Assembly: GCA_902196205.1 (NCBI GenBank)
Contig: CABIKM010000008.1
Location: 1-34,404 of the forward strand
Source: Candidatus Methylomirabilis lanthanidiphila
GTDB lineage: Bacteria > Methylomirabilota > Methylomirabilia > Methylomirabilales > Methylomirabilaceae
DNA: 34,404 nucleotides
Reading direction: 5' to 3'
Below are positions 1-26,981 of this stretch, in pieces. Within the stretch, counting starts at the first letter, position 1. The number at the start of each line of letters is the position of its first letter. The notes below the pieces were generated by a model. It saw only the letters and a list, made by a program, of their open reading frames with translations. It was not told where the DNA came from and made no database searches. The position numbers were made by a program, and so were the translations under genes.

Positions 1-30
1 ACACCAGGTGTCTCAAAATCATTGACACAT
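1..30. mobile_element. Possible IS21-like element end interrupting hsdM
   Basis: Read on the minus strand, the last bases of the window contain TGTCAATGATTTTGAGACAC, which resembles the termini of IS21-family elements from memory. It begins just where the HsdM protein stops looking like its family (after LLED). No transposase is visible, so this is a guess from a short motif. Confidence 0.3.
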
Positions 31-2074: not shown

Positions 2075-2283
2075 CGTCAGCTCAGGTGCTCTCTGTTGCC
2101 GCAGCCCGATTGTGAGCGATACGAGAAATGTGACCGCGGTGTACATGGTCTTGTCGATCGGGGTGCCTGCCGCGCCACATGCCTTCGTCGCCAGCCAAAG
2201 CGCGGGTGTCCTTGGTGTGCCGGGCGCTGACCCATAGGGAAAGTCTCTGCTTGGTGAGACCCTGCTCCATGGTTCTCGCAGGC

Positions 2284-2377
2284 GTCGAACGTGTGAGTTC
2301 AGGGGCCGCCGGAGGCCGAAGGCCGAAGGGCACCGGCAAGCGCAGCTTGCCGGTGGTCCGGAACGAAGGGTTAGAGC
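2284..2377 (-). repeat. attC-like integron recombination site (probably decayed)
   Basis: On the minus strand this 94-bp palindromic element starts 19 bases after the kinase stop codon. It reads CTCTAAC, CCTTC, GTTCCGG, a hairpin-rich centre, CCTGAAC, TCACAC, GTTCGAC. That is the order R'', spacer, L'', variable arm, L', spacer, R' of an integron attC. The two outer boxes pair at 5 of 7 positions, so they are degenerate against RYYYAAC/GTTRRRY. The centre holds a perfect 10-bp stem with a 5-base loop (2331-2355). Position just behind a gene on the same strand is the gene-cassette layout. A fold and covariance-model search would decide. Confidence 0.5.
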
Positions 2378-2395
2378 GATGTTGCGGAAGCACGC

Positions 2396-8834: not shown

Positions 8835-9857
8835 TCACAAATATCGATCAATTAACAGCTCAGCAATCTGAATGGCGTTCAGGGCCGCCCCTTTTCGAAG
8901 CTGGTCTCCCACCACCCAGAGGTTGATCGCATGATCGTTCGAAAGATCCGCTCTGATCCTGCCCACAAAGCACTCGTCCTTGCCGGCCGCGAGAAGCGGC
9001 ACCGGGTAGCGGCCGGCTTCAGGCTCATCAAACACGACGAGTCCCGGCATCGTCGACAGCAGCTCCTTCGCCTTGTCCACCTCGATCCTCCGCTCCGTCT
9101 CGACGTTGATGGCGACGGAATGAGCGGTAAAGACGGGGACGCGTACCGTCGTCGGCGAGACGCCGATCGATTCGTCTCCCAGGATCTTCCGGGTCTCGAA
9201 GACCAGTTTCAGTTCTTCTTTTGTGTAGCCGTTCGGCTGAAAGACGTCGATGTGAGGAATGACGTTGAACGCAATCTGCTTGGGGAAGGCGCTGATCTCG
9301 ATCGGCTTACCGGAAGCCCACGCGAGGGTTTGCCGCCTCAGCTCCTCGATCCCTTTCGCTCCCGCTCCGGACACCGCCTGATAGCTCGTGGCAATGACCC
9401 GCCTGATCCGGCCATAGTCGTGCAGCGGCTTGAGCGGCATTACCATGACAATCGTCGTGCAGTTGGGGTTGGCGATGATGCCGCGAGCTCGATACCCGGC
9501 AAGCGCGTCCGGGTTGATCTCAGGAACGATAAGCGGGATATGCGGGTCCATCCGGAATGCTGAGCTGTTATCGATGACGACTGCGCCGGCCTTGACGGCT
9601 GCCGGAGCGAACTCCTGACTGCGGGTGGCCCCGGCCGAAAAGAGCGCAATCTCAACCCCCTGAAACGACGTCTCGCTCAGCCGCTCGACCTTGATCTCCT
9701 CTCCACGAAACGTCAGGCTCGTTCCGGCGGAGCGCTCGGAGGCCAGGAGCCTCAGACGTCGGACGGGGAAGTTCCGCTCTTCCAGCAGTCGAAGCATCGT
9801 TTCTCCGACCGCGCCGGTGGCCCCGGCAACCGCTACCGTGAATGTCCGCTCCGTCAT
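8835..9857 (-). CDS. asd: Aspartate-semialdehyde dehydrogenase
   Basis: From ATG 9857 (MTERTFTVAVAGATGAVGE) it has 340 residues; a GTG at 9866 could add three. The NADP-binding GATGAVG is at 12-18 and the catalytic cysteine is C133 in NPNCTTIV. Other family blocks are IDNSSAFRMD, VPEINPD, YQAVSGAGAKG and VRVPVFTAHS. It reduces aspartyl phosphate to aspartate semialdehyde, the branch point to lysine, methionine, threonine and diaminopimelate. It starts 15 bases after leuA and is the last gene of its operon. Confidence 0.97.
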   Translation of the reverse strand: MTERTFTVAVAGATGAVGETMLRLLEERNFPVRRLRLLASERSAGTSLTFRGEEIKVERLSETSFQGVEIALFSAGATRSQEFAPAAVKAGAVVIDNSSAFRMDPHIPLIVPEINPDALAGYRARGIIANPNCTTIVMVMPLKPLHDYGRIRRVIATSYQAVSGAGAKGIEELRRQTLAWASGKPIEISAFPKQIAFNVIPHIDVFQPNGYTKEELKLVFETRKILGDESIGVSPTTVRVPVFTAHSVAINVETERRIEVDKAKELLSTMPGLVVFDEPEAGRYPVPLLAAGKDECFVGRIRADLSNDHAINLWVVGDQLRKGAALNAIQIAELLIDRYL

Positions 9858-9872
9858 CTCACGCACGCTCAG

Positions 9873-11420
9873 TTAGAGTCCCCGCGGCGCAGCCGCATCT
9901 TTCGGCGGGCGCTGGGCACCGACAATCTTATTGACGGCGTTCAGGTAGGCTCGCACACTGGCCTCAATCACATCGGTCGAGGCGCCCTTACCGATCACAG
10001 TATGGCCATTGACCTCCAGCTTCACGACCACCTCGCCCAATGCGTCTTTTCCGCCGGTGATAGCCCGGATCGAATAATCGGCCAGCCGTCCCTGGACCTT
10101 CGTGATCTGGTCGATCGCCTTGTAGGCCGCGTCCACCGGGCCATCCCCCCAGCCGGACTCCTGGTAGACCTCGTTATCGCGTTTCAGCCGTACGGTAGCC
10201 GTAGGAACAAGGTTCGTCCCGCTGGTAAACTGCAGATGATCCAGGGTGTAGGTCTCGCCGGCCGCCAGAGCTTCTTCCTCGACAATGGCCAGCAGGTCGT
10301 CGTCAAAGACCTCTTTCTTCTTGTCGGCGACGATCTTAAATCGGACAAAAGCCCGGTTGACGGCATCTTCAGACAATATCACACCCAGTTCTTCCAGTCG
10401 TTTCTTGAAGGCGTGTCGCCCGGAGTGCTTGCCCAGGACCAGTCGGCTCCGAGGAACCCCCACCGATTCCGGGGTCATAATCTCATAGGTCAGCGGCTTT
10501 TGCAGCATGCCATGTTGGTGGACGCCGGCCTCGTGGGCGAAGGCGTTCGCGCCGACGATGGCCTTGTTCGGCTGGACGGGGATGCCGATGATGCTGGTCA
10601 AGAGCTTGCTGGATCGATAGATCTCCTCCGTGTTGATGCCGGTGTCGAAGTCGAGCAGGTCTTTTCGCGTCCGCAGCGCCATCACGATCTCTTCCAGGGA
10701 GGCGTTACCGGCGCGCTCGCCGATTCCGTTGATGGTGCACTCGACCTGTCCGGCCCCATTCCTGACCGCCTCCAGCGAGTTGGCGACCGCCAGCCCGAGA
10801 TCGTTGTGACAGTGGCAGCTAATCACCGCCTTATCGATGTTGGGCACACGATCAAACAGATCCTTGATCCGAGTTCCAAACTCCCAGGGAAGGCCATACC
10901 CGACCGTATCGGGAATGTTGATGGTTGTGGCCCCCGCCTTGATCACCTCCTCAACGACCTTGCAGAGATAATCCTGCTCGCTTCGATGGGCGTCCTCCGG
11001 CGAGAACTCGATATCGTCGGTATAGCGTCTGGCATGTTTCACCGCTGCAACGGCAGCCTGCAGGACCTCCTCCTGCGTCGATTTGAGCTTGTAGGTAATA
11101 TGAATCTCAGAGGTCGCAATAAAGATGTGGATCCTCGCGCGATCGGCATATTGCAACGCCTCCCACGCTCGGTCAATGTCGAGATCCCGGGTCCGGCAGA
11201 GGCTGGCGATGATCGGCCCGCCTCTCAGATTCTGGGCAATCGTCTTGACCGCCTCAAAGTCATCTTCGGAGGCGATGGCGAAGCCCGCCTCAATGACGTC
11301 CACCTTCAGACGAGCCAGTTGCCGGGCCATTTCCAGCTTCTCCCGGGTATTCATGCTGCAACCCGGCGCCTGTTCACCATCCCGAAGCGTCGTATCGAAG
11401 ATCAGAATTCGCTTACCCAT
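9873..11420 (-). CDS. leuA: 2-isopropylmalate synthase
   Basis: At 515 residues this is the usual bacterial LeuA. It has [12 protein letters not shown] at 9-20, the metal-binding HCHND at 203-207, [14 protein letters not shown], and HEAGVHQHG. The C-terminal part from about 370 is the allosteric domain that binds leucine. It condenses acetyl-CoA with 2-oxoisovalerate, the first step of leucine synthesis. Citramalate synthase is a related alternative, but the length and motifs fit LeuA. It begins 5 bases after the pssA stop; psd-pssA-leuA is a familiar order in several phyla, where ilvBNC usually lies upstream. Here alaS lies there instead. Confidence 0.95.
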
Positions 11421-11425
11421 CTTCC

Positions 11426-12226
11426 CTACGCTCCATCTTTCCCCCCGACCGGATGCTCCAGCGGCTGGGGCAGGTGTCGTTGAATCGGCGGAATCAGACG
11501 AATGACGCCGAACAACGCGTACAGGGAGAAGAACAAAAAGGCTACCAGGCTCGGCGCTGATGCGACGATCAAGACCACAAGCGTCAGACCGAACAGAAGC
11601 GCGAAGGGTTGACGCTTCTTGATCTCGATCCCTTTCAGACTGCGGTACCGAAGGCGGCTGACCATCAGGAACGACATCGCGTAGACGATGACGACCATAA
11701 GCGCGGAGGTGACCCGATCCGATAGCAGCTCATGCTCAAAAAGGACCAGCGATGGCGACTCCCGCATGAACAGTACGAAGGACGCGATCACTGCCGCGGC
11801 CGCCGGGATCGGGAGACCGACAAAATAGCGCTTATCGAGCGTCTGTGTCTGGACGTTGAAGCGCGCCAACCGGAAGGCGCCACTCGATACGAACAGCGCT
11901 GTCGGGATAATCGATCCGAACAGCAAGCCCATCTTCGTGTAAGGTTTCATCGCCCACGCATAGGAGAGAATCGCGGGCGCGATGCCGAAAGAGACCAAAT
12001 CGGCCAATGAATCGAGTTGCACACCAAACTCGCTCTGGCTGTTGGTGAGTCGGGCAACGGCTCCGTCGAGGCCATCCAGGATGAGGGCCACAAGGATGGC
12101 GACGGCCGCACGGGTGTAGTCATCGTTGTGGACGGCAACGATCGCATAGACCCCGCACAGCATGCCGCTGATGGTCAGCAGGCTCGGCAGAAGGTAGACC
12201 CCTCGTCGCCGCCGGCCCCTCTTCAT
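11426..12226 (-). CDS. pssA: CDP-diacylglycerol-serine O-phosphatidyltransferase
   Basis: The 266-residue membrane protein carries the complete CDP-alcohol phosphotransferase signature between D51 and D76: DGLDGAVAR, eight residues, G68, D72 and D76. Several hydrophobic helices are seen (around 11-32, 40-50, 100-115, 135-155 and 180-245). It makes phosphatidylserine from CDP-diacylglycerol and serine. Its start overlaps the psd stop as ATGA, so the enzyme and the next enzyme of the pathway are translationally coupled. Confidence 0.95.
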   Translation of the reverse strand: MKRGRRRRGVYLLPSLLTISGMLCGVYAIVAVHNDDYTRAAVAILVALILDGLDGAVARLTNSQSEFGVQLDSLADLVSFGIAPAILSYAWAMKPYTKMGLLFGSIIPTALFVSSGAFRLARFNVQTQTLDKRYFVGLPIPAAAAVIASFVLFMRESPSLVLFEHELLSDRVTSALMVVIVYAMSFLMVSRLRYRSLKGIEIKKRQPFALLFGLTLVVLIVASAPSLVAFLFFSLYALFGVIRLIPPIQRHLPQPLEHPVGGKDGA

Positions 12227-12849
12227 CGGAGTGCCCCTATCACACTGGTTCCTCCATACACCCGATCGCCGCGTTTCACCAAAAGCTCAGCACGCGTCGG
12301 AACGATAAGATCGACGCGTGATCCGAAACGGATCAACCCGATCCGCTCTCCCGCCTCAAGTTTTTGCCCGGGAGCGACGCGACAGACGATGCGTCTCGCG
12401 ATAAGGCCGGCAATCTGTTTGACCAGTAGTCGACCTTCCGGCGCCTTCAACGCAATGAGATTCTGTTCGTTGTCGGCAGATGCTTCAGCCTGCCACGCAA
12501 TCCGAAAGGCCCCGGGTTTGTACGTGACCTCTTCGACGACCGCAGGAAATGGGGCGCGGTTAATATGCACATTGAGTACCGACAGGAAGATGCTGATCTG
12601 GGTCGCCGGTTCTTGCAACTCCGAGCCTATATATCGTGTCACCTGGACGATGGTGCCATCAGCCGGCGAAAGAATCAGCCCCTCGCCCTTCGGAATATCG
12701 CGCGGCGGATCACGGAAAAACAGCGCCACCGACACGGCCAATATCAATGTGATCGTACCGGTCGTCGGCCACCCTGCAATCCATAGGATGACGGCTACGC
12801 TCAGCGGTGGCAGGATGAACGGCCATCCTTCCCGTGCAATCGGGATCAT
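12223..12849 (-). CDS. psd: Phosphatidylserine decarboxylase proenzyme
   Basis: This 208-residue protein is of the short PSD class. The self-cleavage site that makes the pyruvoyl group is the G176-S177 pair in RFGSRVDL, and the SPADG (61-65) and VLNVHINR (91-98) blocks are present. Two hydrophobic segments at the N-terminus (11-27 and 31-45) anchor it in the membrane. It makes phosphatidylethanolamine from the product of PssA. It is the first gene of the psd-pssA-leuA-asd set. Confidence 0.94.
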   Translation of the reverse strand: MIPIAREGWPFILPPLSVAVILWIAGWPTTGTITLILAVSVALFFRDPPRDIPKGEGLILSPADGTIVQVTRYIGSELQEPATQISIFLSVLNVHINRAPFPAVVEEVTYKPGAFRIAWQAEASADNEQNLIALKAPEGRLLVKQIAGLIARRIVCRVAPGQKLEAGERIGLIRFGSRVDLIVPTRAELLVKRGDRVYGGTSVIGALR

Positions 12850-12970
12850 CGCTCACACCGCGCCAGAAAGGTCCATGTAGTCCTTAATTTATAGCATGAT
12901 ACCGGACCTCGTCGCAAGCCGAACATGCCGTTAAGCCTCAACTTTCGGCTCCACATATCCTCGGTCCTGA

Positions 12971-12991
12971 CCGCTGAACGCTGATCGCTGA
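12971..12991. repeat. Three tandem copies of NCGCTGA
   Basis: CCGCTGA, ACGCTGA and TCGCTGA follow one another in the 148-bp gap between alaS and psd. Each copy differs only in its first base. No other signal was seen in that gap. Confidence 0.7.
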
Positions 12992-12997
12992 GTGCGT

Positions 12998-15679
12998 TCA
13001 TGCAAGAAAACGCTTGACCAGTTCCGGGACCAGTCGGAGCGCGCGATCCAACTCATCGGGATTCTTTCCGCCGGCTTCAGCGAGATCAGCCCGGCCGCCT
13101 CCGCTCCCACCGGTGATAGTAGCCAGTTCTTTCACTAACTTGCCGGCGTGCAGACGCGAGGTCAGGTCCGGCGTGACAGCCGCCACCCAGCCTACCCGTC
13201 CATCCAGAGACGTTGCCAGGACAATGACACCGCTGCCGATCTTCGTCCTCAGTCGATCGACAAGTTCGCGTAGCGCCCGCTGATCGTATCGCTCGGCCAG
13301 CCCAGCCACTACCGTAATACCAGCGACTTGGGTCGCCTTCTGCAGCAGCTCTTCCGCGATTTCTGCGCCCAGCTTGGCGCGCAGCCGCTGGATCTCCCGC
13401 TCGAAGGCGCGGGCCGAGTCGAAGAGGCGGTCTACCTTTTCCGGCACCTCAAGCGGCTTACTCTTCAGCCGGTCGGCCGATTCCCGCAACACCTCCCCCT
13501 CATGCTTGAGGTGCTGAAAGGCGCCCGGCCCCGTCAAGGCCTCGATTCGCCGTATCCCGGCGGCGACGCCTGTCTCATGCGCAATCTTCAACAGACCGAT
13601 CTCCCCCGTCGCCTTGGTGTGGGTTCCTCCACACAGCTCGACACTGAAGTCGGCGACGCTCACCACACGCACCTCATCCCCGTACTTGTCGCCGAAGAAC
13701 GCCAGCGCGCCTCTTGCCAACGCCTCATCAAGACGCATCTCGTCGACCGTCACCGGCACGTTGGCCCAGAGGTGTGTATTGACGATTCCCTCGATCTGCG
13801 TGATCTCCACGGAACTCAAGGGCCCGTAGTGCCGGAAGTCAAAGCGCAAGCGGTCCGACGCCACCAGCGAGCCCTCCTGCCGCACATGATCTCCGAGGAC
13901 CTGGCGGAGCGCCGCGTGGATGAGGTGTGTGGCGGTGTGATTTTTGACCGTTGTGCTGCGCCGATCCGCATCAACCGAGGCAAAGAGCCGCTGCCCACTT
14001 CTGATCTCGCCCCGCTTCACCTGAACTCGGTGAACAATCAATCCGGCCAACGGGCGTTTCGTATCCAGGACCTCCGCGAGAACGGCGTCACTTCGGAGGT
14101 ATCCGGTATCCCCCACCTGCCCACCTGATTCCGCATAGAAGGGGGTCTGGTCGAGGACGACCTCGGCCTCGTGTCCCGCGCCGATACGATCAACCTCTTT
14201 CCCGTCCGCGATAACTGAAACCACCGATGCCTCGAGCTCGAGGCGCTCATAGCCCAGAAACACGGTTCGCCTCGCGCCGACAAGGTTATGGAAGACTTCG
14301 GCAACTCCCGGAACGTCTCCAAACGCCTTGAGGTGCGCTCGCGACATCTCGCGCTGGCGTCTCAGCTCTGTCTCGAACCCGCCCCAATCGCATCTGACCG
14401 ACTGCTCAGCAGCGATCTCATCGATCAGGTCGCGCGGTACGCCGTATGTATCGTACAGCTCAAAGAGCTTTGACCCAGGCAGGATGGCCTGTTCCGCCCC
14501 TTCGACTGAGCTCAGGACAGGCGCCTGAGACTTGATATTTTGGATCAGATCATGCAGTCGAGGGAGCGCCTCGCGCAGCACAATACCGAACCGGTCCTCC
14601 TCGATCCAAGCCAGGCGCGCGACATGCGCCTGAGTCGCCGGAAGCTCCGGATAGGCGTCCGCCATCAGATCGATCACTTTGTTGGTGACAACGGCCAGAA
14701 ACGGCTCATTCAGTCCCAGGAGGCGGCCATGTCGAAGCGCGCGCCGGAGGATCCGACGCAGCACGTAGCCACGGCCCTCGTTGCCGGGCAGCACACCATC
14801 GGCCAACGCGAAGGTGACCGCTCTTGCGTGGTCGGCGATGACCCGCATCGATACATCATCATTCTGGTCCGCCCCATATCGCTTCTGCGATAGCTCCTCT
14901 ACTGCGGCGATCAGCGGGCGGATGAGGTCGCTCTCAAAATTACTCTTGACCCCCTGACAGACTGCGGCCATCCGCTCCAACCCCGCTCCCGTATCGATGC
15001 TTGGCTTCGGCAGCGGCGTAAGAGTCCCGGAGGCATCGCGATTATACTGCATGAACACCAGGTTCCACAGCTCCAGATAGCGATCACAACCGCATTCAAT
15101 ACTACAGGTCGACCGCCCGCACCCGATCGAGGGACCCTGGTCGAAGATCAATTCGGAGCACGGCCCGCATGGGCCGGTCTCTCCCATGGACCAGAAATTG
15201 TCTTTTTCTCCAAGGCGGACGATCCGATCTGACGGCAGGTCCGTCAGCCTTCGCCAGAGTTCGCCCGCCGCATCATCGTCTTTATAAATGGTGGCCCAGA
15301 GTTGACCGGCAGGCAGCCCCAACTCGCGCGTCAGGAACGCCCAGCCATATTCAATGGCGCCTTCCTTAAAGTAATCGCCAAAAGAGAAGTTTCCGAGCAT
15401 CTCAAAAAAGGTATGGTGGCGCGCGGTTCGACCCACATTCTCCAGGTCGTTATGCTTCCCGCTGACGCGCAAACACTTCTGAATCGAAACAGCGCGCCGG
15501 TAGGGACGCGGATCCGTTCCCAGAAAGACCCCCTTAAACGGCACCATCCCCGCATTGGTGAACAGCAGCGTCGGATCACCGGCGGGAACCAATGAGGAGC
15601 TGGCCACCACCGTATGGTCGTTCCGTTCAAAGAATCGCAGGAACCGATCGCGGATTGCTCCGCCTGTCAACTGCGGCAT
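12998..15679 (-). CDS. alaS: Alanine-tRNA ligase
   Basis: From ATG 15679 it has 893 residues; a GTG at 15691 could add four. The aminoacylation domain (FTNAGMVPFK, MLGNFSFGDYFK, GPCGPCSE), the editing domain (NHTATHLIHAAL and CGGTHTKATGEIG) and the C-terminal coiled-coil and GGSGGGRADLAEAGG end are complete. It charges tRNA-Ala and clears mischarged Ser and Gly. About residues 384-398 (SQAPVLSSVEGAEQA) look inserted before LYDTYGVPRDL; the DNA there contains a palindrome. Its ATG overlaps the recX stop, and recA-recX-alaS is a common order. Confidence 0.97.
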   Translation of the reverse strand: MPQLTGGAIRDRFLRFFERNDHTVVASSSLVPAGDPTLLFTNAGMVPFKGVFLGTDPRPYRRAVSIQKCLRVSGKHNDLENVGRTARHHTFFEMLGNFSFGDYFKEGAIEYGWAFLTRELGLPAGQLWATIYKDDDAAGELWRRLTDLPSDRIVRLGEKDNFWSMGETGPCGPCSELIFDQGPSIGCGRSTCSIECGCDRYLELWNLVFMQYNRDASGTLTPLPKPSIDTGAGLERMAAVCQGVKSNFESDLIRPLIAAVEELSQKRYGADQNDDVSMRVIADHARAVTFALADGVLPGNEGRGYVLRRILRRALRHGRLLGLNEPFLAVVTNKVIDLMADAYPELPATQAHVARLAWIEEDRFGIVLREALPRLHDLIQNIKSQAPVLSSVEGAEQAILPGSKLFELYDTYGVPRDLIDEIAAEQSVRCDWGGFETELRRQREMSRAHLKAFGDVPGVAEVFHNLVGARRTVFLGYERLELEASVVSVIADGKEVDRIGAGHEAEVVLDQTPFYAESGGQVGDTGYLRSDAVLAEVLDTKRPLAGLIVHRVQVKRGEIRSGQRLFASVDADRRSTTVKNHTATHLIHAALRQVLGDHVRQEGSLVASDRLRFDFRHYGPLSSVEITQIEGIVNTHLWANVPVTVDEMRLDEALARGALAFFGDKYGDEVRVVSVADFSVELCGGTHTKATGEIGLLKIAHETGVAAGIRRIEALTGPGAFQHLKHEGEVLRESADRLKSKPLEVPEKVDRLFDSARAFEREIQRLRAKLGAEIAEELLQKATQVAGITVVAGLAERYDQRALRELVDRLRTKIGSGVIVLATSLDGRVGWVAAVTPDLTSRLHAGKLVKELATITGGSGGGRADLAEAGGKNPDELDRALRLVPELVKRFLA
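14488..14521. repeat. Palindromic repeat inserted in frame in alaS
   Basis: The core CTGAGCTCAG (14506-14515) is a perfect 10-bp palindrome inside CCTTCGACTGAGCTCAGGAC, a sequence style known as a dispersed repeat in many genomes. CCTGT and ACAGG flank it as outer arms. It encodes PVLSSVEG in AlaS and keeps the reading frame. Confidence 0.6.
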
Positions 15680-17691: not shown

Positions 17692-18306
17692 ATGAACATG
17701 CAGAAGATCACGATGAACCTATTCCTGGTTGTGAGTTTCGCAGTGGCCTTATGGTTACCCGGACTACCGCTTGCCCACGCCGCAACTGGAAACGTTGCAC
17801 AACAGGTTGATCCGAAGCCGCCCTGCCCTAACGGCATTGGCGCGGGTAGTGCGTTTGATGGCACCAATCTCTGGTACTCCTGCTCTGCAAACTCTACAGA
17901 CTTGTACCGCGTTCGGACCGATGGCGTGGTAACCGACTCATACAGGATTGACGGAGGTCTCGGAGCACTCGTTTACGATCGCGAAAGGAACGGGATCTGG
18001 GCAAGCTGGGGCGGTGGAGCGGCCGGTAACGGCGCAGTGTGGTTCATCTCCCTGAATGTCGACAAACATATTGTCAAGGCTGCACTCGTGGGCCGCGTCT
18101 CCGAGGGTCTCGTGTGCGATCTGAACGATGGTCTGGCCTACGACGCACGGACAAGTAGCCTCTTTTTCAGTCATGCGTGTTCGAGAACGATTCATCGCTA
18201 CACCATCGCACCTGGTTCCCCTCCGGCGCTGGGTGCGCACATGCATGACATCTTCCCCGAAAGTCATCGTTATAGTCTCCAATGGTCAGACCGGCGGGAA
18301 AAGTAA
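17692..18306 (+). CDS. Secreted beta-propeller-like protein, probably truncated
   Basis: The ATG at 17692 or 17698 follows AAGAGGAG. The 204-residue protein begins with a clear signal peptide ending LPLAHA. The mature part has repeats typical of lyase-like or NHL-like propeller proteins: GSAFDGTNLWYSC, DLYRVRTDG, GGLGALVYDRERNGIWASW, DLNDGLAYDARTSSLFFSH and TIHRYT. Only about two or three blades are present, and the end (from TIAPGS on) looks nonconserved, so the gene is likely a shortened family member. Cysteines at 45, 59 and others may pair. It has its own sigma54-type promoter. A dead relative lies at 23208. Function unknown. Confidence 0.75.
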   Translation: MNMQKITMNLFLVVSFAVALWLPGLPLAHAATGNVAQQVDPKPPCPNGIGAGSAFDGTNLWYSCSANSTDLYRVRTDGVVTDSYRIDGGLGALVYDRERNGIWASWGGGAAGNGAVWFISLNVDKHIVKAALVGRVSEGLVCDLNDGLAYDARTSSLFFSHACSRTIHRYTIAPGSPPALGAHMHDIFPESHRYSLQWSDRREK

Positions 18307-18335
18307 GCCTCGTTGCCTTCGTAAACAGTAGAAGG

Positions 18336-18650
18336 ATGCGACAACCGGGAACGGCCAGCGATCAAGAGAAACTCATCCGGCGATTAAATGAGGCGGAGGT
18401 AGAGGCCAACATGATCAGCAATAGATGGGTCTACGACAACAGCGTCTGCAAGCGCCACGGTCTGACGCGCCGGGAAGTGGAGGTGCTCACTTGGGTCGCC
18501 GGCGGAAAGAGCAATACCGAAATCGGACTGATTCTCGGGACAAGCCCACGAACTGTCGGGAAGCATTTGGAACATATTTTCGAGAAATTGGGGGTGGAAA
18601 CGCGCACGGCGGCCGCCGTGCGCGCACTCGCCCTCACCTCTTCTCAATAG
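18336..18650 (+). CDS. LuxR-type HTH protein, N-terminally truncated
   Basis: From ATG 18336 this is 104 residues; an earlier ATG at 18282 overlaps the upstream gene. The C-terminal 60 residues are a full LuxR/GerE DNA-binding domain: LTRREVEVLTWVAGGKSNTEIG, then TSPRTVGKHLEHIFEKLGV, then RTAAAVRAL. No receiver, PAS or ligand-binding domain precedes it, only a charged helical stretch. Family members usually have one, so it is either a stand-alone HTH protein or the remnant of a larger regulator fused by deletion to the end of the propeller gene. Confidence 0.75.
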   Translation: MRQPGTASDQEKLIRRLNEAEVEANMISNRWVYDNSVCKRHGLTRREVEVLTWVAGGKSNTEIGLILGTSPRTVGKHLEHIFEKLGVETRTAAAVRALALTSSQ

Positions 18651-18830: not shown

Positions 18831-21800
18831 ATGAATTACCGTCTGTTCTCAATCCAGCGCACAATTCTTCTGCATATCCTCGTTTGCTCGATCGTCTCCG
18901 TGTTGAGCATCGTACCCGCGATAGCCCAGGAGGCAGGAAGGATTGTGAGCGTTGTAGGAAGTGTCGAGGTCTTTCGGGCCCGGCAGTGGCAGCCGGTTGG
19001 ACTTCGTCATGTCCTCATGCCTGGCGATGTGGTGAGAACTGGTCCGGGAAGCCGGGCAGCGATCCTCCTCTCGGACGAGGTGCAGATCAAGGTCAACGCC
19101 AACAGTACCCTGGAGATTACAGAGGTGATGGGTCCTCCAGGGAAAGCAGTTCGTGCTGGGACCGCTCCTTTACAGACGATCCTCAACCTGCTGAAAGGGG
19201 AACTCTGGAGTCGAAGCCGCGGCAGACCCCTTCAGATTCGGACGCCGGCCGCAACGGCAACCATTCGGGGCACGGAGTTCGATCTCTCCAGCGGTCCCGA
19301 TAACGAATCCCGCCTTGCCGTGCTCGAGGGGGCGGTCGAGTTCCGGAATCCTCAGGGGGGTGTCGTGGTGAGGGCCGGAGAAGAGGCAACGGCCAGGATG
19401 GGCGAACCCCCAAGCAAGACCATCCTCCTCAAGCCTCTCGATGCGGTCCAATGGTCCCTTTACTACCCGGGAATTCTCAGTGTTCGGGATTATCCGCTAA
19501 GCGGTGTAGCCCCTACTCTTCTGGCTCAAGGGCTGGTTGACGCCGAGCAGAGAGCGGTCTCCGGACCGACGGACCCGGAGGCGAGGCTCAAGCTGGGCGA
19601 GATCCTCTTCGATCTGGGAAGGCAGGTTGAGGCACGAAGAGAATTTGAGAAAGCCCTTACCCTCGATCCGGGGAACCCGAGGGCCCTTGCCGGTCTCGGG
19701 TGGGTCCACCTGGTGGAGGGGAGGCTTCCAGAGGCTTTGAGGGCATTCCAGCAGGCAACACCTTCTACTCTTTCAGCCCTCGTGGGACAGACCAACGCCC
19801 TCTATCGGCTTGACCGCTTCGACGAGATGCAGGAGGTTATCTCCGAGGCCAAAGGCCGTTTCCCATCCTTCCCGCAACCCCTGGCGCAAGCCGCCCTGCT
19901 CTATCTCATTCAGGGCCGAGTGGCCGAGGCGCGGCAGGAGCTGGAACATGCCGTGGCCCTCGATCCCAACTATGCGCTCGCCCATGACCTTCGCTCGAAC
20001 ATCGCATTGGTTCGGAATGAGAAGGATCTGGCGCAGCAGGCAGCGCAGCAGGCGATCGCAGCTAATCCACGCTCCGCCTCGTCCTATCTTAACCTGAGTC
20101 TGGCGAAGCAAGCCGCATTCCACCTGGACGAGGCGTTGCAGGCGGCCAGAAAGGCGCTGGCGCTGGAGCCGGATAATCCCATGGCCATGATTCAGGTCAG
20201 CCGCCTCCTCTTCGGCATGGGAAGGCTCTCAGAGGCATTGAGCATGGCCGAGGAGGCGCGGCGACGGGCTCCCTCAGATCCCCTTATCACCAGCACATGG
20301 GGCTTCCTCTTGTTAACTCAGGTCAAGACCCCGGAGGCCCTGACAGCCTTTGATCAGGCGATTGATCAAGATTCTACTCGCGGTGAGCCTCATCTGGGCC
20401 GCGGTCTGGCGCTCTTCAGGCAGGGAAAAACAGAGGAAGCGGTCCAGGAGATGTGGATGGCCACCCTCCTGGAGCCCAAGGTCTCCCTCTTTTGGAGCTA
20501 TCTGGGGAAGGCGCTCTATGAGGCGAAACGCTATCCGGAGGAGATGGATCCCCTTGCTATCGCCAAGCGCTCGGATCCGAACGATCCAACCCCCTGGTTC
20601 TATGACGCGATCCAGAAACAGACGACAAACCGGCCGGTTGAAGCATTACGCGACATGCAGCAGGCGATCGAACTCAACGACAACCGGGCCGTCTATCGGT
20701 CACGCCTGTTGCTCGATTCGGACCTGGCCGCGCGGAGCGCCAGTCTCGGTCGGATCTACAGCGATCTCGGATTTCAGCAGCTTGCGCTGGTGGAAGGCTG
20801 GAAATCCGTCAATACCGATCCAAGCAACTTCTCCGCCCACAGGTTTCTCGCCGACTCGTATGCCGTCTTGCCGCGCCACGAGATTGCGCGTGTCAGCGAA
20901 CTCCTTCAATCTCAGTTGCTTCAGCCGATCAACATCACGCCCATTCAGCCCCACCTCGCTGAAAGCAATCTGTTCCTGATAAGTTCTCAGGGACCGGCGC
21001 GTCTTTCCTTCAACGAATTCAATCCGCTGTTCACCAGGAATGGGATCAGGTTCCAGCCAAGCGGCGTTGGCGGTGAAAATAGCACGTATGGCGGAGAAGG
21101 TGTCCTCTCCGGGATCTATCAAAAGGCCTCCTTCAGCTTCGGCGGATCTCACTTTGAGACGGACGGGTTTCGAAAAAACAGCGATCAGCATGATGACATC
21201 GCGGATGCGTTCCTGCAGTACGAATTGTCGCCTCAAACCAGTGTTCAATTTGAATACCGGTTTAGAAATACTCGAACTGGAGATCTTCAGCTAAACTTCT
21301 TCCGAGACGACATTTTTTCGGGATTGAGGAACTCAGCAGATACAAATAGCTGGCGCGTCGGCCTGCGTCATGCCTTTTCGCCGAACTCTACTGTCCTCGG
21401 CTCATTCATGTATCAACGTCAAGATTCGCTCAACCATGATGAATCGCCGGACTTAACCGTGGATTTCAAAGACCCTGATCAACGAGGGATCAGCGTGGAA
21501 CTTCAGCATCTTTTTCAGTCGCGCCACATCAACTTAACCGGCGGTATAGGGTATTTCGACCGTAAAAGAGAACAGATACTTACTATCGAATACGTTCCTC
21601 CTTTGGACGAATTCAACTTTAAGGGCCGCCTTGATTTCGACGCCAGGCACGTGAATGTGTATCTGTACTCCTATCTCAACGTGCTCAAGGACGTGACATT
21701 CACGCTTGGCGCCAGCGGCGATTTCTTTAAGACGGACAGCACGGCTTCAGAATCCACAGACCAGTTCAACCCGAAACTCGGGATTACCTGGAACGTGCTT

Positions 21801-22505
21801 CCGGACACCACCCTTCGGGCGGCCGTATTCAGAGCCTTTAAGAGAACTCTGCTCACTAACCAGACCCTCGAACCGACTCAGGTAGCCGGCTTTAACCAGT
21901 TTTATGACGACTTCGACTCGACGGAGTCATGGCGCTACGGCATAGCTGTCGATCAAAAATTCTCTCCGACGCTATTCGGGGGAGTGGAATTGTCGAGGCG
22001 GGATCTAGAGGTTCCGCTTCCACTCACAGACCCCGCCTCGGATGTCACTGAAGTGGAACGTACGGACTGGCGCGAAGATCTGGCTCGCGCCTACTTCTTC
22101 TGGACACCTCATGAATGGCTGGCGCTCAGTACGGAATATCAGTATGAATATTTTAAACGAATTCGGGAGTTCGGTTTTGGTATAGTGGACGCCACGACGC
22201 ATAGAGTCCCTCTGGGGCTGAGATTGTTCCACCCCGCCGGATTGAGTTTCGTGGGAAAGGCGACCTGGTTTCATCAAAACGGTAACTTTTTCCGAAAAAG
22301 CGGTGTCTGCTGTGAGTCCGGTACGAGTGACTTTTGGGTCGTCGATACCGCAGTCAGTTACCGGCTCCCGAAGCGGTATGGCTTCTTGACGATCGGCGCA
22401 ACAAATCTCTTTAATCGAAAATTCAAGTATCAGGAAACCGACTTGAAGAATCCGGCAATACAACCAGATAGAACTTTCTTTGCTAGACTCACGTTATCGT
22501 TTTAG
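18831..22505 (+). CDS. FecR-domain / TPR / outer-membrane beta-barrel fusion protein
   Basis: The start is uncertain: ATG 18831 puts a signal peptide (LLHILVCSIVSVLSIVPAIA) at the N-terminus; ATG 18816 or TTG 18789 are alternatives. The 1224 residues fall into three parts. A FecR domain lies at about 35-200 (VEVFRARQWQPVG, LMPGDVVRTGPGSRAAI, TPAATATIRGTEF). About ten TPR-like repeats follow (about 240-640; for example EARREFEKALTLDPGNPRALAGLGWV). The rest (about 730-1224) is a TonB-receptor-like barrel ending NLFNRKFKYQE...ARLTLSF, with the C-terminal Phe expected of BAM substrates. No plug domain or TonB box was recognised. It should sit in the outer membrane with FecR and TPR parts in the periplasm. 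Substrate unknown. A CHASE2 sensor kinase is encoded nearby. Confidence 0.85.
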   Translation: MNYRLFSIQRTILLHILVCSIVSVLSIVPAIAQEAGRIVSVVGSVEVFRARQWQPVGLRHVLMPGDVVRTGPGSRAAILLSDEVQIKVNANSTLEITEVMGPPGKAVRAGTAPLQTILNLLKGELWSRSRGRPLQIRTPAATATIRGTEFDLSSGPDNESRLAVLEGAVEFRNPQGGVVVRAGEEATARMGEPPSKTILLKPLDAVQWSLYYPGILSVRDYPLSGVAPTLLAQGLVDAEQRAVSGPTDPEARLKLGEILFDLGRQVEARREFEKALTLDPGNPRALAGLGWVHLVEGRLPEALRAFQQATPSTLSALVGQTNALYRLDRFDEMQEVISEAKGRFPSFPQPLAQAALLYLIQGRVAEARQELEHAVALDPNYALAHDLRSNIALVRNEKDLAQQAAQQAIAANPRSASSYLNLSLAKQAAFHLDEALQAARKALALEPDNPMAMIQVSRLLFGMGRLSEALSMAEEARRRAPSDPLITSTWGFLLLTQVKTPEALTAFDQAIDQDSTRGEPHLGRGLALFRQGKTEEAVQEMWMATLLEPKVSLFWSYLGKALYEAKRYPEEMDPLAIAKRSDPNDPTPWFYDAIQKQTTNRPVEALRDMQQAIELNDNRAVYRSRLLLDSDLAARSASLGRIYSDLGFQQLALVEGWKSVNTDPSNFSAHRFLADSYAVLPRHEIARVSELLQSQLLQPINITPIQPHLAESNLFLISSQGPARLSFNEFNPLFTRNGIRFQPSGVGGENSTYGGEGVLSGIYQKASFSFGGSHFETDGFRKNSDQHDDIADAFLQYELSPQTSVQFEYRFRNTRTGDLQLNFFRDDIFSGLRNSADTNSWRVGLRHAFSPNSTVLGSFMYQRQDSLNHDESPDLTVDFKDPDQRGISVELQHLFQSRHINLTGGIGYFDRKREQILTIEYVPPLDEFNFKGRLDFDARHVNVYLYSYLNVLKDVTFTLGASGDFFKTDSTASESTDQFNPKLGITWNVLPDTTLRAAVFRAFKRTLLTNQTLEPTQVAGFNQFYDDFDSTESWRYGIAVDQKFSPTLFGGVELSRRDLEVPLPLTDPASDVTEVERTDWREDLARAYFFWTPHEWLALSTEYQYEYFKRIREFGFGIVDATTHRVPLGLRLFHPAGLSFVGKATWFHQNGNFFRKSGVCCESGTSDFWVVDTAVSYRLPKRYGFLTIGATNLFNRKFKYQETDLKNPAIQPDRTFFARLTLSF

Positions 22506-22622: not shown

Positions 22623-22991
22623 ATGAAACTCAAACTGACGCTTCTCGTAATGTTCACAGCTATTGTGTCCTTTGCTTGCGCTAGCTATCCACGGGGTGCC
22701 TCCCAGGAAGGCATCCAGCTAGGAACACGCAATCATCCACACGCACCGATTACAGTTCAGCGGACCGATTCGATTTTTGGCGGAGAGTGCGTAGCGAAGT
22801 TGATATTTGACAACGACAGTGGCGCCCTAACAAAGGTAGAAACTGAGAAACCCTGCGTTGTGAAAGAGGAGCGCTTGTTGGTGAATGGCCGCGAGGTCAT
22901 AGATCTCTCCGGCTCAATCGAATTTGGTGGTAGCTGCAAACGTTGTTATTCAAACGGACAATGTATTGTCGACTACTCCAAGAATTGCTGA
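22623..22991 (+). CDS. Small lipoprotein, cysteine-rich, unknown function
   Basis: A strong GGGGGGG ribosome-binding site precedes ATG 22623. The 122-residue protein has a lipoprotein signal ending VSFAC (Cys19), followed by A-S, so it should be lipidated and, without Asp at +2, is likely sorted to the outer membrane. The mature part has cysteines in GGECVAK, KPCVVK and a C-terminal cluster GGSCKRCYSNGQCIVDYSKNC. No family was recognised. It follows the FecR-TPR-barrel gene by 117 bases and could be its partner. Confidence 0.65.
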   Translation: MKLKLTLLVMFTAIVSFACASYPRGASQEGIQLGTRNHPHAPITVQRTDSIFGGECVAKLIFDNDSGALTKVETEKPCVVKEERLLVNGREVIDLSGSIEFGGSCKRCYSNGQCIVDYSKNC

Positions 22992-23207: not shown

Positions 23208-23352
23208 ATGAGAAAGATAACAATGAGAATCGTCCTGGTTGCTGGGTTAGCAGTGGCCTAGCTGTTGTCTAGTTTACCGATGGCCCATGCCGTGCGCATT
23301 GTCATCTTTCAAGGGGACAAATATATCGTATTGCCCCATCGATAGGCGTCTC
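23208..23352 (+). pseudogene. Dead, internally deleted copy of the propeller-like gene
   Basis: TCAAAAGAGGAG and the following start region closely match the leader of the gene at 17692. The signal peptide is related residue by residue (MRKITMRIVLVAGLAVA against MQKITMNLFLVVSFAVA, and LPMAHA against LPLAHA), but a TAG stop interrupts it at about 23259. Further on, GACAAATATATCGT and GGCGTCTCC resemble GACAAACATATTGT and CGCGTCTCC near 18061-18100 of the intact gene, as if the middle was deleted. No sigma54-type promoter was seen upstream of it. Confidence 0.65.
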
Positions 23353-23436
23353 CAGGGATCTCGCCTTCGCCTATCCCTTACAGTTACAGCCACGAGGTTG
23401 TATGACGCACCAGATCGCTCGTCTAGTTATATGATG

Positions 23437-23461
23437 GCGCCCACATCACAGATGTGGGCGC
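23437..23461. terminator. Strong 11-bp hairpin before the histidine kinase gene
   Basis: GCGCCCACATC and its exact complement are separated by only ACA. It ends 36 bases before the likely kinase start. No T-tract follows, so a classical terminator is uncertain; it may act on the mRNA or stop transcription from the pseudogene region. The rest of 22992-23496 shows nothing coding beyond the pseudogene. Confidence 0.45.
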
Positions 23462-23496
23462 ATCGTCGACTCGGGTGGATTGCATGGGGATGCTCG

Positions 23497-25563
23497 ATGA
23501 CCGGTAACGAAGGGGTGCGGCCCACGCTACAAGCCGTTCTCATTGCCGTCCCGGCTTTCGCGGCCATGCTCATTCTCATCAATCTCCCTCTCTTCTCTCT
23601 GCTCGAGTTGAAGGGACTGGATCTGCTGTTTCGCATGCGGGGGCCCCTCGCCCCTCCCGGCGAGATCGTCGTCGTTGCCATCGATGAGCCGTCGTTTGCG
23701 GAAATTATGACGCAGTGGCCCTGGCCTCGCCGCCTTCATGCCCGTCTGATCGAGCAACTGAAGAAGGCGGGGGCCAGGGTCATCGCGTTCGATATCCTCT
23801 TCGCGGAACCATCTCAACCCGAGGAGGATCGGGCTTTGGCGCAGGCCATCCACGCGGCCGGAAACGTCGTCCTTGCCGGCGAGCGGTCGGTCGTAACCGA
23901 TGCGCTGTTTCGTCAGACGATCCTCGTCGATCCCATCGAACTCTTCAAGGCGACCGCGTCAGTAGGAATTGCCACCCTTCCGATCGATCCTGATGGAATC
24001 GTAAGACGACCTCTCCCCTTCTCGAATGATCTCCCCTCGTTTGCCTCCCAGATCGTCAGGCTGTACCAGGGACAGGCGCCGTACGCAAGTCAGACGGATT
24101 CCTCCGACACGACCCTGATCAACTATTTCGGCCCACCGAGGACCGTCAAGACGATCTCCTATTACCAGGCTCTCGAGGCCGACCGGATGCTTCCGTCAGG
24201 AACCTTTACCGACAAGATCGTCCTGGTGGGTCGGGCCGTCCAGGCGGCGCCTGAACCGCAGCGAGCCTCACCCGACGTCTTTCCGACCCCGTTTTCCTTC
24301 GACGCGGGCGGTCCCACCGCCGGTGTCGAGATCCATGCCACGATCGTCGCCAACCTCTTGACGAAACAGATGGTGACCGAACCCCCAGGGGCGGTACGCT
24401 ATGGTCTGCTCTTTCTCCTGGCGCTGATCGGCAGCCTGAGCACCATGCGTCTCAAGCCGTTATGGGCAGCCGGAGCGATCCTCGGCCTGTCGATACTGTT
24501 TCTCTTGTTCGCCTTCGGATTCTTTACGAAAGGACTTGTGTGGCTGCCTATCTTCGCCGGGATGGTACAACTCGGTCTGGTCTACGGCGGGTATTTGATC
24601 GCGCAGGTCTTCTCTGCTCAGCGGGAACGACGTCTGGCGCTTGAGGCGATGAACCGGGAGCTGGAACAAAAGGTCAAAGAGCGGACAGCCCAATATGTCG
24701 CCGCGAATGAAGAGCTAGTGAAGGAGCAACACGAGCTGGAGAAAACTCTGCACGAGTTGGCCCAGACCCAGAATGAGCTGCTCCAGTCCGAGAAGATGGC
24801 GTCCCTGGGTTTTCTAGTAGCGGGGGTCGCTCATGAGCTGAACAATCCGATCAGCTTTGTCCATAGTAATATGGATTTTATCGGGGAATATGTTCTGAGG
24901 CTTAAAGGAGTACTTGAGGCGTATGAGACGATTACGCTACCCGATGGGCCTGCCTACCAGCAACTTGCAGAGCTGAAAAAGGGAGCGAGACTGGACCGCA
25001 CTCTCCATACATTAGATGAACTGATCACCAGTTGTAAGCGGGGTACGGAACGGGTGAAGAGAGTTGTCTTGGACCTCGGAACCTTTGCCAGGGCGGACGA
25101 TGTCGATCCCGCCCCCGCCGACCTGCATGAAGGGCTCGAAATCACCCTCAATCTTCTCGCAAAAGAGTACAGGGATCGGATCACTGTCCATCGAGAGTAT
25201 GGAACTCTGCCGCAGGTCGAGTGTCATGCCGGCCAGATCAACCAGGTATTTATGAATCTGCTGCTCAATGCCGCTCAAGCGATTCCTGAGACCGGAGACG
25301 TCTGGATCAACACCTCGTCCCACGGAGATAAGGTCGTCGTGATCATTAAGGACAACGGCTGCGGCATTCCCGAGGCGAATCTGCCCAGGATCTTTGATCC
25401 CTTCTTTACGACGAAGAAGGTTGGTGAAGGGATGGGGCTGGGTCTGAGTATCAGCTACGGGATCATCCAGAAACATGGCGGCAACATGCGTGTGTCGAGT
25501 CCTGATCGGCAGGGAACGGAGTTCACCATTGAGCTGCCGGTCAAGTGGAGCGGTACAAAATGA
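23497..25563 (+). CDS. CHASE2-domain sensor histidine kinase
   Basis: The open frame begins at 23287, but those first 70 residues are unconserved and overlap the pseudogene. ATG 23497 follows GGGGA and gives 688 residues. A first membrane helix (about 10-30) precedes a periplasmic CHASE2 domain (about 33-285; VVVVAIDEPSFAEI, WPWPRRLHARLIEQL, FDILFAEPS, GTFTDKIVLVGR). Then come about three helices (300-385), a coiled coil (about 385-430), a HisKA domain with H446 in AGVAHELNNPISF, and an HATPase domain with N, G1 and G2 boxes (LLNAAQAI, DNGCGIP, GEGMGLGLSI). It should sense an unknown periplasmic signal and phosphorylate the regulator encoded next, with which it overlaps by 4 bases. Confidence 0.93.
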   Translation: MTGNEGVRPTLQAVLIAVPAFAAMLILINLPLFSLLELKGLDLLFRMRGPLAPPGEIVVVAIDEPSFAEIMTQWPWPRRLHARLIEQLKKAGARVIAFDILFAEPSQPEEDRALAQAIHAAGNVVLAGERSVVTDALFRQTILVDPIELFKATASVGIATLPIDPDGIVRRPLPFSNDLPSFASQIVRLYQGQAPYASQTDSSDTTLINYFGPPRTVKTISYYQALEADRMLPSGTFTDKIVLVGRAVQAAPEPQRASPDVFPTPFSFDAGGPTAGVEIHATIVANLLTKQMVTEPPGAVRYGLLFLLALIGSLSTMRLKPLWAAGAILGLSILFLLFAFGFFTKGLVWLPIFAGMVQLGLVYGGYLIAQVFSAQRERRLALEAMNRELEQKVKERTAQYVAANEELVKEQHELEKTLHELAQTQNELLQSEKMASLGFLVAGVAHELNNPISFVHSNMDFIGEYVLRLKGVLEAYETITLPDGPAYQQLAELKKGARLDRTLHTLDELITSCKRGTERVKRVVLDLGTFARADDVDPAPADLHEGLEITLNLLAKEYRDRITVHREYGTLPQVECHAGQINQVFMNLLLNAAQAIPETGDVWINTSSHGDKVVVIIKDNGCGIPEANLPRIFDPFFTTKKVGEGMGLGLSISYGIIQKHGGNMRVSSPDRQGTEFTIELPVKWSGTK

Positions 25564-26981
25564 ACCGGTATGGGATGCTGATCGTCGATGACGAGAGGGA
25601 TATTTTAACAACCCTCTCCTTGACGTTCGAAGAGGACTACGATGTCTTCCAGGCCAACAGCGGCGCTGAAGGGCTGGCAATCCTGGAGCGAGAGGAGATC
25701 GCGCTCATCATTGCGGACCAACGGATGCCGGAAATGACAGGGGTCGAATTCCTGGAGCGATCTATCGCGAAGCGGCCACAGGCCATCAGGATCATCCTCA
25801 CCGGCTATACGGATACGGCATCTCTCATCCGGGCTATCAACGCCGGCAGGATCTATCGCTATGTGACCAAACCCTGGAATCGGGATGAATTGAGGATCAC
25901 GGTCAAGCGCGCGTTCGAAAGTTATGAACTGGCTATGGAGAACCAGCGGCTCCTCAGGGAGTTGCAAGCGGCCAACGAACGGCTACAGACGGAGAATCTG
26001 TATCTGAAGCGCGAGGTCGAAAAGGCTCCCCGTAGCGACACGATCATCGGTAATAGTCCAGCTATGAGGCGGGTCTTCGATCTGATAGAAAAGGTGATCG
26101 ACAGTTCCGCTACGATCCTCCTCACCGGAGAAACTGGAACAGGAAAAGGGGTGATCGCTCACCATCTTCACTACCATGGTTCGAGGCGAGGACGGCTGTT
26201 TATCGAACAGAACTGCGGGGCGCTGCCTGAGACGCTGCTGGAAAGCGAGCTGTTTGGCCATCGACGCGGAGCCTTCACGGGGGCCGTTCAAGACAAGAAA
26301 GGTCTCTTTGAGGTGGCAGATGGGGGAACCCTCTTCCTGGACGAGGTCAGCGAGATGAGTCCCACCATGCAGGTCAAGCTGCTTCAGGTCCTTCAGGACG
26401 GCAGGATGCGGCGAATCGGGGAGACTGAATCCAGGCAGGTCGATGTTCGGATCGTCGCGGCCACCAATAGGGACCTGGAATCGGAGGTCAAAAAAGGCGC
26501 CTTTCGAGCAGACCTTTACTACCGCCTCAGTGTGTTTCCTGTCAGAACACCTGCCTTGCGCGAACGGCGAGAGGATATCCCCTTACTCATCGACTATTTT
26601 CTCGAAAAACAGTGTAAGAAGTTGAAAAAGCCGGTTATGGGACTGAGTCAGGACGCCATACAACGGCTGTGCGACTACGACTTTCCTGGAAACGTGCGAG
26701 AGCTGCAAAATCTCATTGAGCGGGCCGTACTCCTGAGCAGCGGTTCTCGGCTGGATCTGGACGAATGGCTGCCAAAGCCTAGTGATCCCTCCCGAGCAGC
26801 GGGGAGCCCTACGCTGACGCAGGTTGAAAAGGACCATATTCTGGAGCGACTCCATTCGCGGAAAGGGAATCTCGCGCTGGTGGCTAAAGATCTCGGAATC
26901 AGTCGTACGACACTCTGGCGTCGGATGAAGGCCTATCAGATCCCATGGGGTGCCAGACGAGTCGAAGTATCCGCCGAATAA
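25560..26981 (+). CDS. Sigma54-dependent response regulator (NtrC family)
   Basis: ATG 25560 overlaps the kinase stop as ATGA and gives 473 residues. The receiver domain (about 5-120) has LIVDDERD, phospho-acceptor D53 in ADQRMPEMTG, and YVTKPW. The AAA+ domain has Walker A GETGTGKG from 190, GAFTGA at 237-242 (contact with sigma54), GGTLFLDEV, and the arginine-finger region ADLYYRLSVF. A Fis-type helix-turn-helix closes the protein (ERLHSRKGNLALVAKDLGISRTTLWRRM). It should activate sigma54 promoters after phosphorylation by the adjacent kinase. Two matching palindrome pairs plus sigma54-type promoters at 17459-17618 and 27064-27223 are likely targets. Confidence 0.95.
   Translation: MNRYGMLIVDDERDILTTLSLTFEEDYDVFQANSGAEGLAILEREEIALIIADQRMPEMTGVEFLERSIAKRPQAIRIILTGYTDTASLIRAINAGRIYRYVTKPWNRDELRITVKRAFESYELAMENQRLLRELQAANERLQTENLYLKREVEKAPRSDTIIGNSPAMRRVFDLIEKVIDSSATILLTGETGTGKGVIAHHLHYHGSRRGRLFIEQNCGALPETLLESELFGHRRGAFTGAVQDKKGLFEVADGGTLFLDEVSEMSPTMQVKLLQVLQDGRMRRIGETESRQVDVRIVAATNRDLESEVKKGAFRADLYYRLSVFPVRTPALRERREDIPLLIDYFLEKQCKKLKKPVMGLSQDAIQRLCDYDFPGNVRELQNLIERAVLLSSGSRLDLDEWLPKPSDPSRAAGSPTLTQVEKDHILERLHSRKGNLALVAKDLGISRTTLWRRMKAYQIPWGARRVEVSAE

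Follow-up and report, generated by a model that had tools for sequence, protein, structure and literature searches.

Positions 1–34,404 of contig CABIKM010000008.1 (assembly GCA_902196205.1) of Candidatus Methylomirabilis lanthanidiphila, a stretch of 34,404 nucleotides referred to here as the window, carry an open reading frame (ORF) at 18831–22505 (+) that encodes, in a single exported chain of 1224 residues, a FecR domain, tetratricopeptide repeats (TPRs) and a C-terminal outer-membrane barrel. Downstream of this receptor lie the genes of a CHASE2 histidine kinase and a sigma-54-type response regulator. We consider it likely that the window encodes a distant transenvelope receptor of the NsrA type, with its output switched to a two-component system. 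A CHASE2-linked FecR–TPR–barrel receptor is already known from the NsrA–CyaK pair of Sinorhizobium meliloti; what is new here is the output through a CHASE2 histidine kinase and a regulator. The parts of the system are as follows.

18831..18926, +: putative receptor signal peptide, residues 1–32 (translation read by eye)
18927..19475, +: FecR domain region, residues 33–215, with Pfam FecR at 66–170 (Pfam, AlphaFold2; 82–87% identity to four same-genus orthologues)
19476..20390, +: TPR solenoid, N-terminal part, residues 216–520 (Pfam, AlphaFold2, structure comparison)
20391..20945, +: conserved stretch of last helices plus the linker leading into the barrel, residues 521–705 (identity across homologues; low predicted local distance difference test score, pLDDT)
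20946..22505, +: plug-less 22-stranded TonB-receptor-type barrel, residues 706–1224, including the stop (Pfam, models, structure comparison)
23287..25563, +: CHASE2 histidine kinase, with CHASE2 at 92–382, HATPase at 650–752 and H-box His516 (Pfam, orthologue comparison)
25545..26981, +: NtrC-type response regulator with receiver, sigma-54 activator and Fis helix-turn-helix (HTH) domains, overlapping the kinase gene (Pfam)

The receptor ORF has no internal stops, and GAGG lies 5′ of its ATG start codon. By eye, the translation begins with a putative signal peptide (residues 1–32, ending ...PAIA before QEA) and closes with a C-terminal Phe. Pfam searches placed FecR (PF04773) at residues 66–170 (E 1.8e-15), many TPR models over residues ~250–620 (best E 1.1e-32) and TonB_dep_Rec_b-barrel (PF00593) at residues 807–1193 (E 1.1e-10). 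No plug, STN or secretin family occurred among the best 25 of 26 Pfam matches, none of 19 NCBIfam matches reached the cut-off, and a PDB search by sequence returned TPR proteins (best 60 of 168 matches). Since this architecture recurs, in the same order, in homologues from other phyla, the receptor is not a chance join.

The mature chain was modelled with AlphaFold2 from a 15-row alignment (mean pLDDT 64.4, predicted template modelling score (pTM) 0.42). In this whole-chain model, a beta FecR domain at mature residues 1–166 is followed by ~30 helices at mature residues 170–664, with a regular 34-residue spacing at ~298–584 that corresponds to about ten canonical TPRs; the 22 strands that come next are separated from the helices by a linker of 42 residues. 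Its best Foldseek matches in the PDB were BtuB and other TonB-dependent transporters (E 1.7e-12). Because a VIA comparison of this model was largely confined to the TPR part, the C-terminal half (residues 560–1224) was folded and compared alone (12 rows, mean pLDDT 64.0, pTM 0.60). This model likewise has 22 strands and aligns with PirA (5fp2_B) over 427 residues (VIA-align Z 19.7, root-mean-square deviation 3.6); the VIA-align rows shown for it are TonB-dependent transporters, while a viral structure library returned only generic barrels and nothing informative. TonB-dependent transporters (PirA, BtuB, FoxA) share the 22-stranded barrel and carry an N-terminal plug domain, whereas the receptor has, in its place, the 42-residue linker from the TPR rod. 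No plug-like fold lies between the TPRs and the first strand in either model, in a region with pLDDT <50; in this low-confidence region, where a plug could hide, helices may fill the barrel lumen. Taken together, these data confirm the chain as a putative signal peptide, FecR, a run of about ten regular TPRs flanked by degenerate ones, and a plug-less 22-stranded TonB-receptor-type barrel. An earlier, sequence-only reading had placed FecR, about ten TPRs and a plug-less barrel in one 1224-residue chain; translation, Pfam and AlphaFold2 agree with it, and neither predicted structure contains a normal plug.

At E 1e-30, 7 of the 15 genus genomes and 12 of the 95 phylum genomes held a receptor homologue, and a scan of a GTDB collection gave 13 receptor loci, among them loci from Methylococcaceae, Nitrosomonas, Desulfoferrobacter and Desulfobacteraceae. 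The phylum and GTDB sets overlap by one locus (G060/L026; such labels are our own), giving 24 loci for counting. A CHASE2 gene lies beside the receptor at 16 of them (window, G006, G009, G003, G049, G014, G090, L016, L018, L020, L022, L023, L024, L025, L027 and L028), including L018, where it is 4 kb away with genes in between, and L028, where the adjoining CHASE2 gene is frameshifted. At two loci (G073, L019) just the tail of a cyclase is visible before the contig end, at one (L021) no CHASE2 gene lies nearby, and five are undecidable because of contig ends (G001, G008, G072, G060/L026 and L017); of these, G008 has a matching kinase–regulator pair at the start of a separate contig. A second sample comprised 151 genomes from the order of a Methylococcaceae genome, which were searched with the receptor C-terminal half at E 1e-40. 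It was found in 52, and CHASE2 was searched for in 50 of these, leaving out two already counted and merging fragments to give 69 loci. CHASE2 lay within 10 kb at 49 of the 69 loci, against 0.7 expected, and 45 of the 50 genomes held a linked pair. Whether CHASE2 is a consistent neighbour had been set beforehand as a test of the sequence-only reading, and both samples bear it out.

This FecR–CHASE2 association is general. Across the 95 genomes of the phylum, a FecR gene occurs within 6 kb of 40 of 150 listed CHASE2 genes, versus ~1.1 expected (150 + 149 genes among the matches listed; the expectation assumes 4-Mb genomes). Since few of the CHASE2-adjacent FecR genes are receptor-sized, judged by ORF length among the matches listed, FecR and not the barrel is likely to be the contact with CHASE2. 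The source genome (3.05 Mb) has a single FecR match and a single CHASE2 match, which are the receptor and kinase of the window.

Across receptor loci, CHASE2 is constant and the output domain variable. Ten CHASE2 neighbours typed by Pfam comprised eight with a cyclase domain, one with GGDEF–EAL (L025) and one with no output domain (L020); in the order sample, all 48 of 48 linked CHASE2 genes scored best as cyclases. Histidine-kinase CHASE2 proteins were confined in these samples to the genus of the window, where they adjoin the receptor (window, G006, G009, G014) or lie on a separate contig (G008). As kinases were seen in this genus alone, and the other typed partners are nearly all cyclases, the window falls in a rare output class within the samples. 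Its kinase gene starts 781 bases 3′ of the receptor ORF, and the kinase retains its H-box, N, G1 and G2 motifs intact.

According to excerpts of PMC7529298 and PMC13001267, NsrA of S. meliloti is an outer-membrane barrel receptor that is required together with inner-membrane CHASE2 cyclases for the signal response, and NsrA–CyaK signals from the outer to the inner membrane; ribosomal protein uL2 is proposed as the signal (excerpts of PMC7529298). In S. meliloti GR4 (L045), a FecR–TPR ORF of ~1200 residues (8905–12513) overlaps at its end with a CHASE2 cyclase gene (12513–14462). This pair may be named NsrA–CyaK by its architecture and position; Pfam gives no match for the barrel of its FecR–TPR protein. 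As in the window, a signal peptide, FecR, TPRs and a C-terminal barrel are combined in ~1200 residues, and a CHASE2 gene lies downstream (directly so in NsrA–CyaK). Profile comparison of the receptor with the NsrA group using hhalign matched query residues 35–1130 to template residues 32–1223, which amounts to whole-length homology (probability 100, E 6e-46, 1027 columns, 21% identity). Seven rhizobial plasmid loci with NsrA-like genes were fetched among 88 matching records, and at five the cyclase is directly downstream. The NsrA–CyaK partner is a CHASE2 adenylate cyclase acting via cyclic AMP (cAMP), whereas the window has a CHASE2 histidine kinase with a sigma-54-type regulator; because its partner is a histidine kinase, the window is a variant and not a member of the cAMP pathway.

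Other FecR–CHASE2 clusters are described in excerpts of PMC9239204 and PMC5192318. In the Burkholderia BiofilmReg operon, as in the window, a FecR protein adjoins a CHASE2 histidine kinase and a response regulator, but the FecR protein carries LysM and the regulator belongs to the CreB subfamily (excerpts of PMC5192318); none of the terms TPR, TonB, barrel or outer membrane appears anywhere in its text. In a Campylobacterota CHASE2 adenylate-cyclase cluster, FecR and TPR are separate proteins and the output consists of a cyclase and a phosphodiesterase (excerpts of PMC9239204). Searches of open-licence papers found none pairing CHASE2 with Methylomirabilis and none pairing a FecR domain with tetratricopeptide and barrel; the two that combine CHASE2 with barrel and outer membrane are among those cited here.

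In the proposed path, an external ligand would bind the extracellular loops of the plug-less barrel, and the change so induced would travel down the TPR rod across the periplasm. At the far end of the rod, the N-terminal FecR domain would touch the kinase, whose gene lies two genes downstream, at its periplasmic CHASE2 domain. Phosphorylation of the co-encoded sigma-54-type response regulator by the kinase would follow, and the regulator would alter transcription at sigma-54 promoters. It is for S. meliloti NsrA alone that signal direction, and the need for the receptor as well as a CHASE2 protein, have been reported (excerpts of PMC7529298 and PMC13001267); for the window's system, we infer the FecR–CHASE2 contact, the signal direction, the ligand and the target genes. 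A direct path from outer to inner membrane had been suggested by the sequence-only reading and gains support from the conserved CHASE2 linkage, the lack of a predicted plug and the trans-envelope signalling reported for the homologous NsrA–CyaK. The same reading had called the CHASE2 kinase (23287–25563) the closest signalling gene; this holds, with the small correction that a LuxR-type HTH ORF (18282–18650) lies closer, upstream. Its likening of the protein to the FecR relay was loose, as the analysis turned up neither a sigma factor nor an anti-sigma part.

Several observations weigh against an NsrA-type receptor with a two-component output. The barrels of the window and NsrA are just 15–19% identical, and the overall arrangement of domains in the low-confidence whole-chain model is not reliable (the domains themselves are fair). 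Linkage is also incomplete: L021 has a receptor without CHASE2 over 8 kb upstream and 5 kb downstream on a 16-kb contig, two of the seven rhizobial loci (L077, L079) have no cyclase next door, and 20 of the 69 loci in the order sample lack CHASE2 within 10 kb, many of these being extra copies or on contigs without a CHASE2 match. In G001, a genome of the same genus that has the receptor, the sole CHASE2 match is cyclase-type and on another contig; its lack of a linked CHASE2 gene is perhaps an assembly gap. Tree distances offer modest evidence for pairing FecR with CHASE2, too weak for the argument to depend on it, with correlations to CHASE2, uncorrected for kinship, of 0.80 (136 pairs) or 0.63 (55 pairs, one kinase row, without rhizobia) for FecR and 0.58 (171 pairs) or 0.55 (66 pairs) for the barrel; the G090 CHASE2 ORF in this comparison is over-extended at its start. 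Finally, a search of the window for sigma-54 promoters (consensus TGGCAC-N5-TTGCW, ≤1 mismatch) gave zero matches against 0.91 expected, and therefore no regulon can be read.

Three other explanations were weighed. The order of TPRs then barrel, without a plug, would suit a secretion pore resembling the BcsC/PgaA polymer exporters; the CHASE2 pair would then do no more than control how the pore is expressed. Weak PgaA and BcsC model matches, in the TPR part only, and PEP-CTERM-type proteins beside four homologues point the same way. BcsC/PgaA barrels have 16 strands, however, whereas that of the receptor has 22 and is of the TonB-receptor type; the 20 window proteins given to Pfam include no glycosyltransferase or polymer synthesis family; and a pore leaves the N-terminal FecR domain and the CHASE2 partner unexplained, so that we regard this explanation as improbable. 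About as improbable is signalling in reverse, in which the CHASE2 kinase responds to something periplasmic and is only tuned or masked by the receptor, with FecR as an inhibitor. FecR–CHASE2 pairs in which FecR is not barrel-sized are common in the phylum (among the matches listed) and also occur in the Burkholderia operon (excerpts of PMC5192318), as such a role would allow, but a response to an external signal reportedly depends on NsrA, and overproducing NsrA makes the assay more sensitive (excerpts of PMC7529298).

The barrel fold together with a FecR domain could instead denote a plug-less TonB-dependent transporter that has acquired FecR and signals to a sigma/anti-sigma system of the conventional kind, encoded at another genomic site. 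We hold this to be very improbable: the receptor is the sole FecR match in the genome, no sigma-factor family occurs among the 20 window proteins scanned with Pfam, TonB would have no plug to engage, and the constant neighbour is a CHASE2 gene and not a sigma gene. In the FecIRA system, FecR is an inner-membrane anti-sigma protein beside an ECF (extracytoplasmic function) sigma factor; the receptor, read by eye, begins with a signal peptide followed by FecR. A role of its FecR domain as an anti-sigma relay was rejected on that N-terminus and on the absence of sigma families among the scanned proteins.

Within the proposed NsrA-type receptor, the barrel half has its own history. Between the window and four same-genus orthologues, identity is 82–87% in FecR, 77–82% in the TPR parts and 48–49% in the barrel; the corresponding values are 78–80% for CHASE2 (four same-genus kinases, three from orthologue genomes plus G014) and 89–92% for the response regulator (three same-genus proteins). 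A cyclase-linked receptor of the same genus (G003) is 35% identical to the window in FecR, 33% in the TPRs, 73% in the last helices and 56% in the barrel. The last helices and linker (residues 521–705) are 61–73% identical, and the barrel 35–56%, in most cross-phylum homologues. Between kinase-type and cyclase-type rows (65 pairs), mean identity was 31.2% in the N-terminal half and 48.8% in the C-terminal half; within the cyclase-type group (78 pairs), it was 42.9% and 50.0%, respectively (kinase-type group including G001; second group including L025, L020, L021 and G072; G090, G014, L017 and rhizobia excluded). A clade of window plus G003 was rejected for the N-terminal half by the approximately unbiased (AU) test (p 1.1e-5) and not rejected for the C-terminal half (p 0.27), for which the best tree weakly groups the kinase-type rows together (56/84). 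From these comparisons, FecR–TPR looks as if it tracks output type while the barrel half is exchangeable. We read this as a transfer of the barrel half between adaptors at least once, or as fast barrel change after such a transfer; either would fit a ligand-facing part under changing selection. Set against the same-genus loci L029, L030, L031, L012 and L032, the stretch 20391–22505 of the window points to a mosaic history: kinase-linked receptors of its own genus are no closer to it than cyclase-linked ones from other phyla, which is not the case for FecR–TPR.

A broader picture, which we put forward tentatively and with some doubt, is of a general, modular relay spread over several phyla, in which an exchangeable ligand-sensing barrel sits on a FecR–TPR adaptor matched to a CHASE2 protein (cyclase, GGDEF–EAL or histidine kinase). 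The strongly conserved last helices would take the place of the TonB plug and, by moving, couple ligand binding to the rod, and the genus of the window would have swapped cAMP for a two-component output while it keeps swapping, or rapidly changing, barrels. Signal crossing of two membranes and the periplasm has been solved for few systems. If a single chain with exchangeable outputs and barrels is a common answer, FecR–TPR–barrel proteins would form a large family of unstudied environmental receptors, on the scale of the 52 of 151 genomes in one order that carry the C-terminal half of at least one. The kinase-linked version offers a simple phosphorylation or reporter readout.

Two further ORFs flank the receptor within the window.

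18282..18650, +: LuxR-type HTH ORF upstream of the receptor (profile matches; conserved beside the receptor in two same-genus genomes)
22623..22991, +: small exported protein encoded between the receptor and kinase genes (no homology to same-slot ORFs in relatives)

The LuxR-type HTH ORF has a ~71% identical counterpart beside the receptor in G006 and G009, and the NCBIfam model closest to it, with a score below cut-off, is that of the PEP-CTERM-associated regulator EpsA. The small exported protein was considered as a conserved component of the system and rejected, as it has no homology to same-slot ORFs in three relatives (L029, L034, L030). Residues 1–48 to 1–70 of the kinase ORF (23287–23496) have no counterpart in orthologues, and the true start is probably further in, near residue 49–71. 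On the other side of the receptor lie recA and alaS, with a small gene between those two.

Around the homologues, small exported proteins of the PEP-CTERM type lie beside four receptors (L016:13664–14104, L017:3664–4314, L020:13583–14251 and L032:9567–10265). One of the four has a Pfam PEP-CTERM match; those of L017 and L020 have a similar C-terminal tail by eye, and that of L016 is cut. These proteins are possible ligands, cargo or surface partners. A gene of ~220 residues (117 in L020) recurs near cyclase-linked receptors (L016:9092–9745, L022:8661–9329, L027:13873–14553 and L020:6956–7309), with zero Pfam matches for the L016 and L022 copies. A conserved block of three genes, of ~411–417, 144–166 and 116–138 residues, lies near the receptor at three loci (L017:5183–7302, L020:7702–9712 and L022:14539–16664), the first gene being split in L020. 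Elsewhere in the window, a type I restriction-modification N6-methylase gene (2–3322) crosses the window edge and adjoins a serine/threonine kinase gene, and the source genome contains a PmoA/AmoA-family gene.

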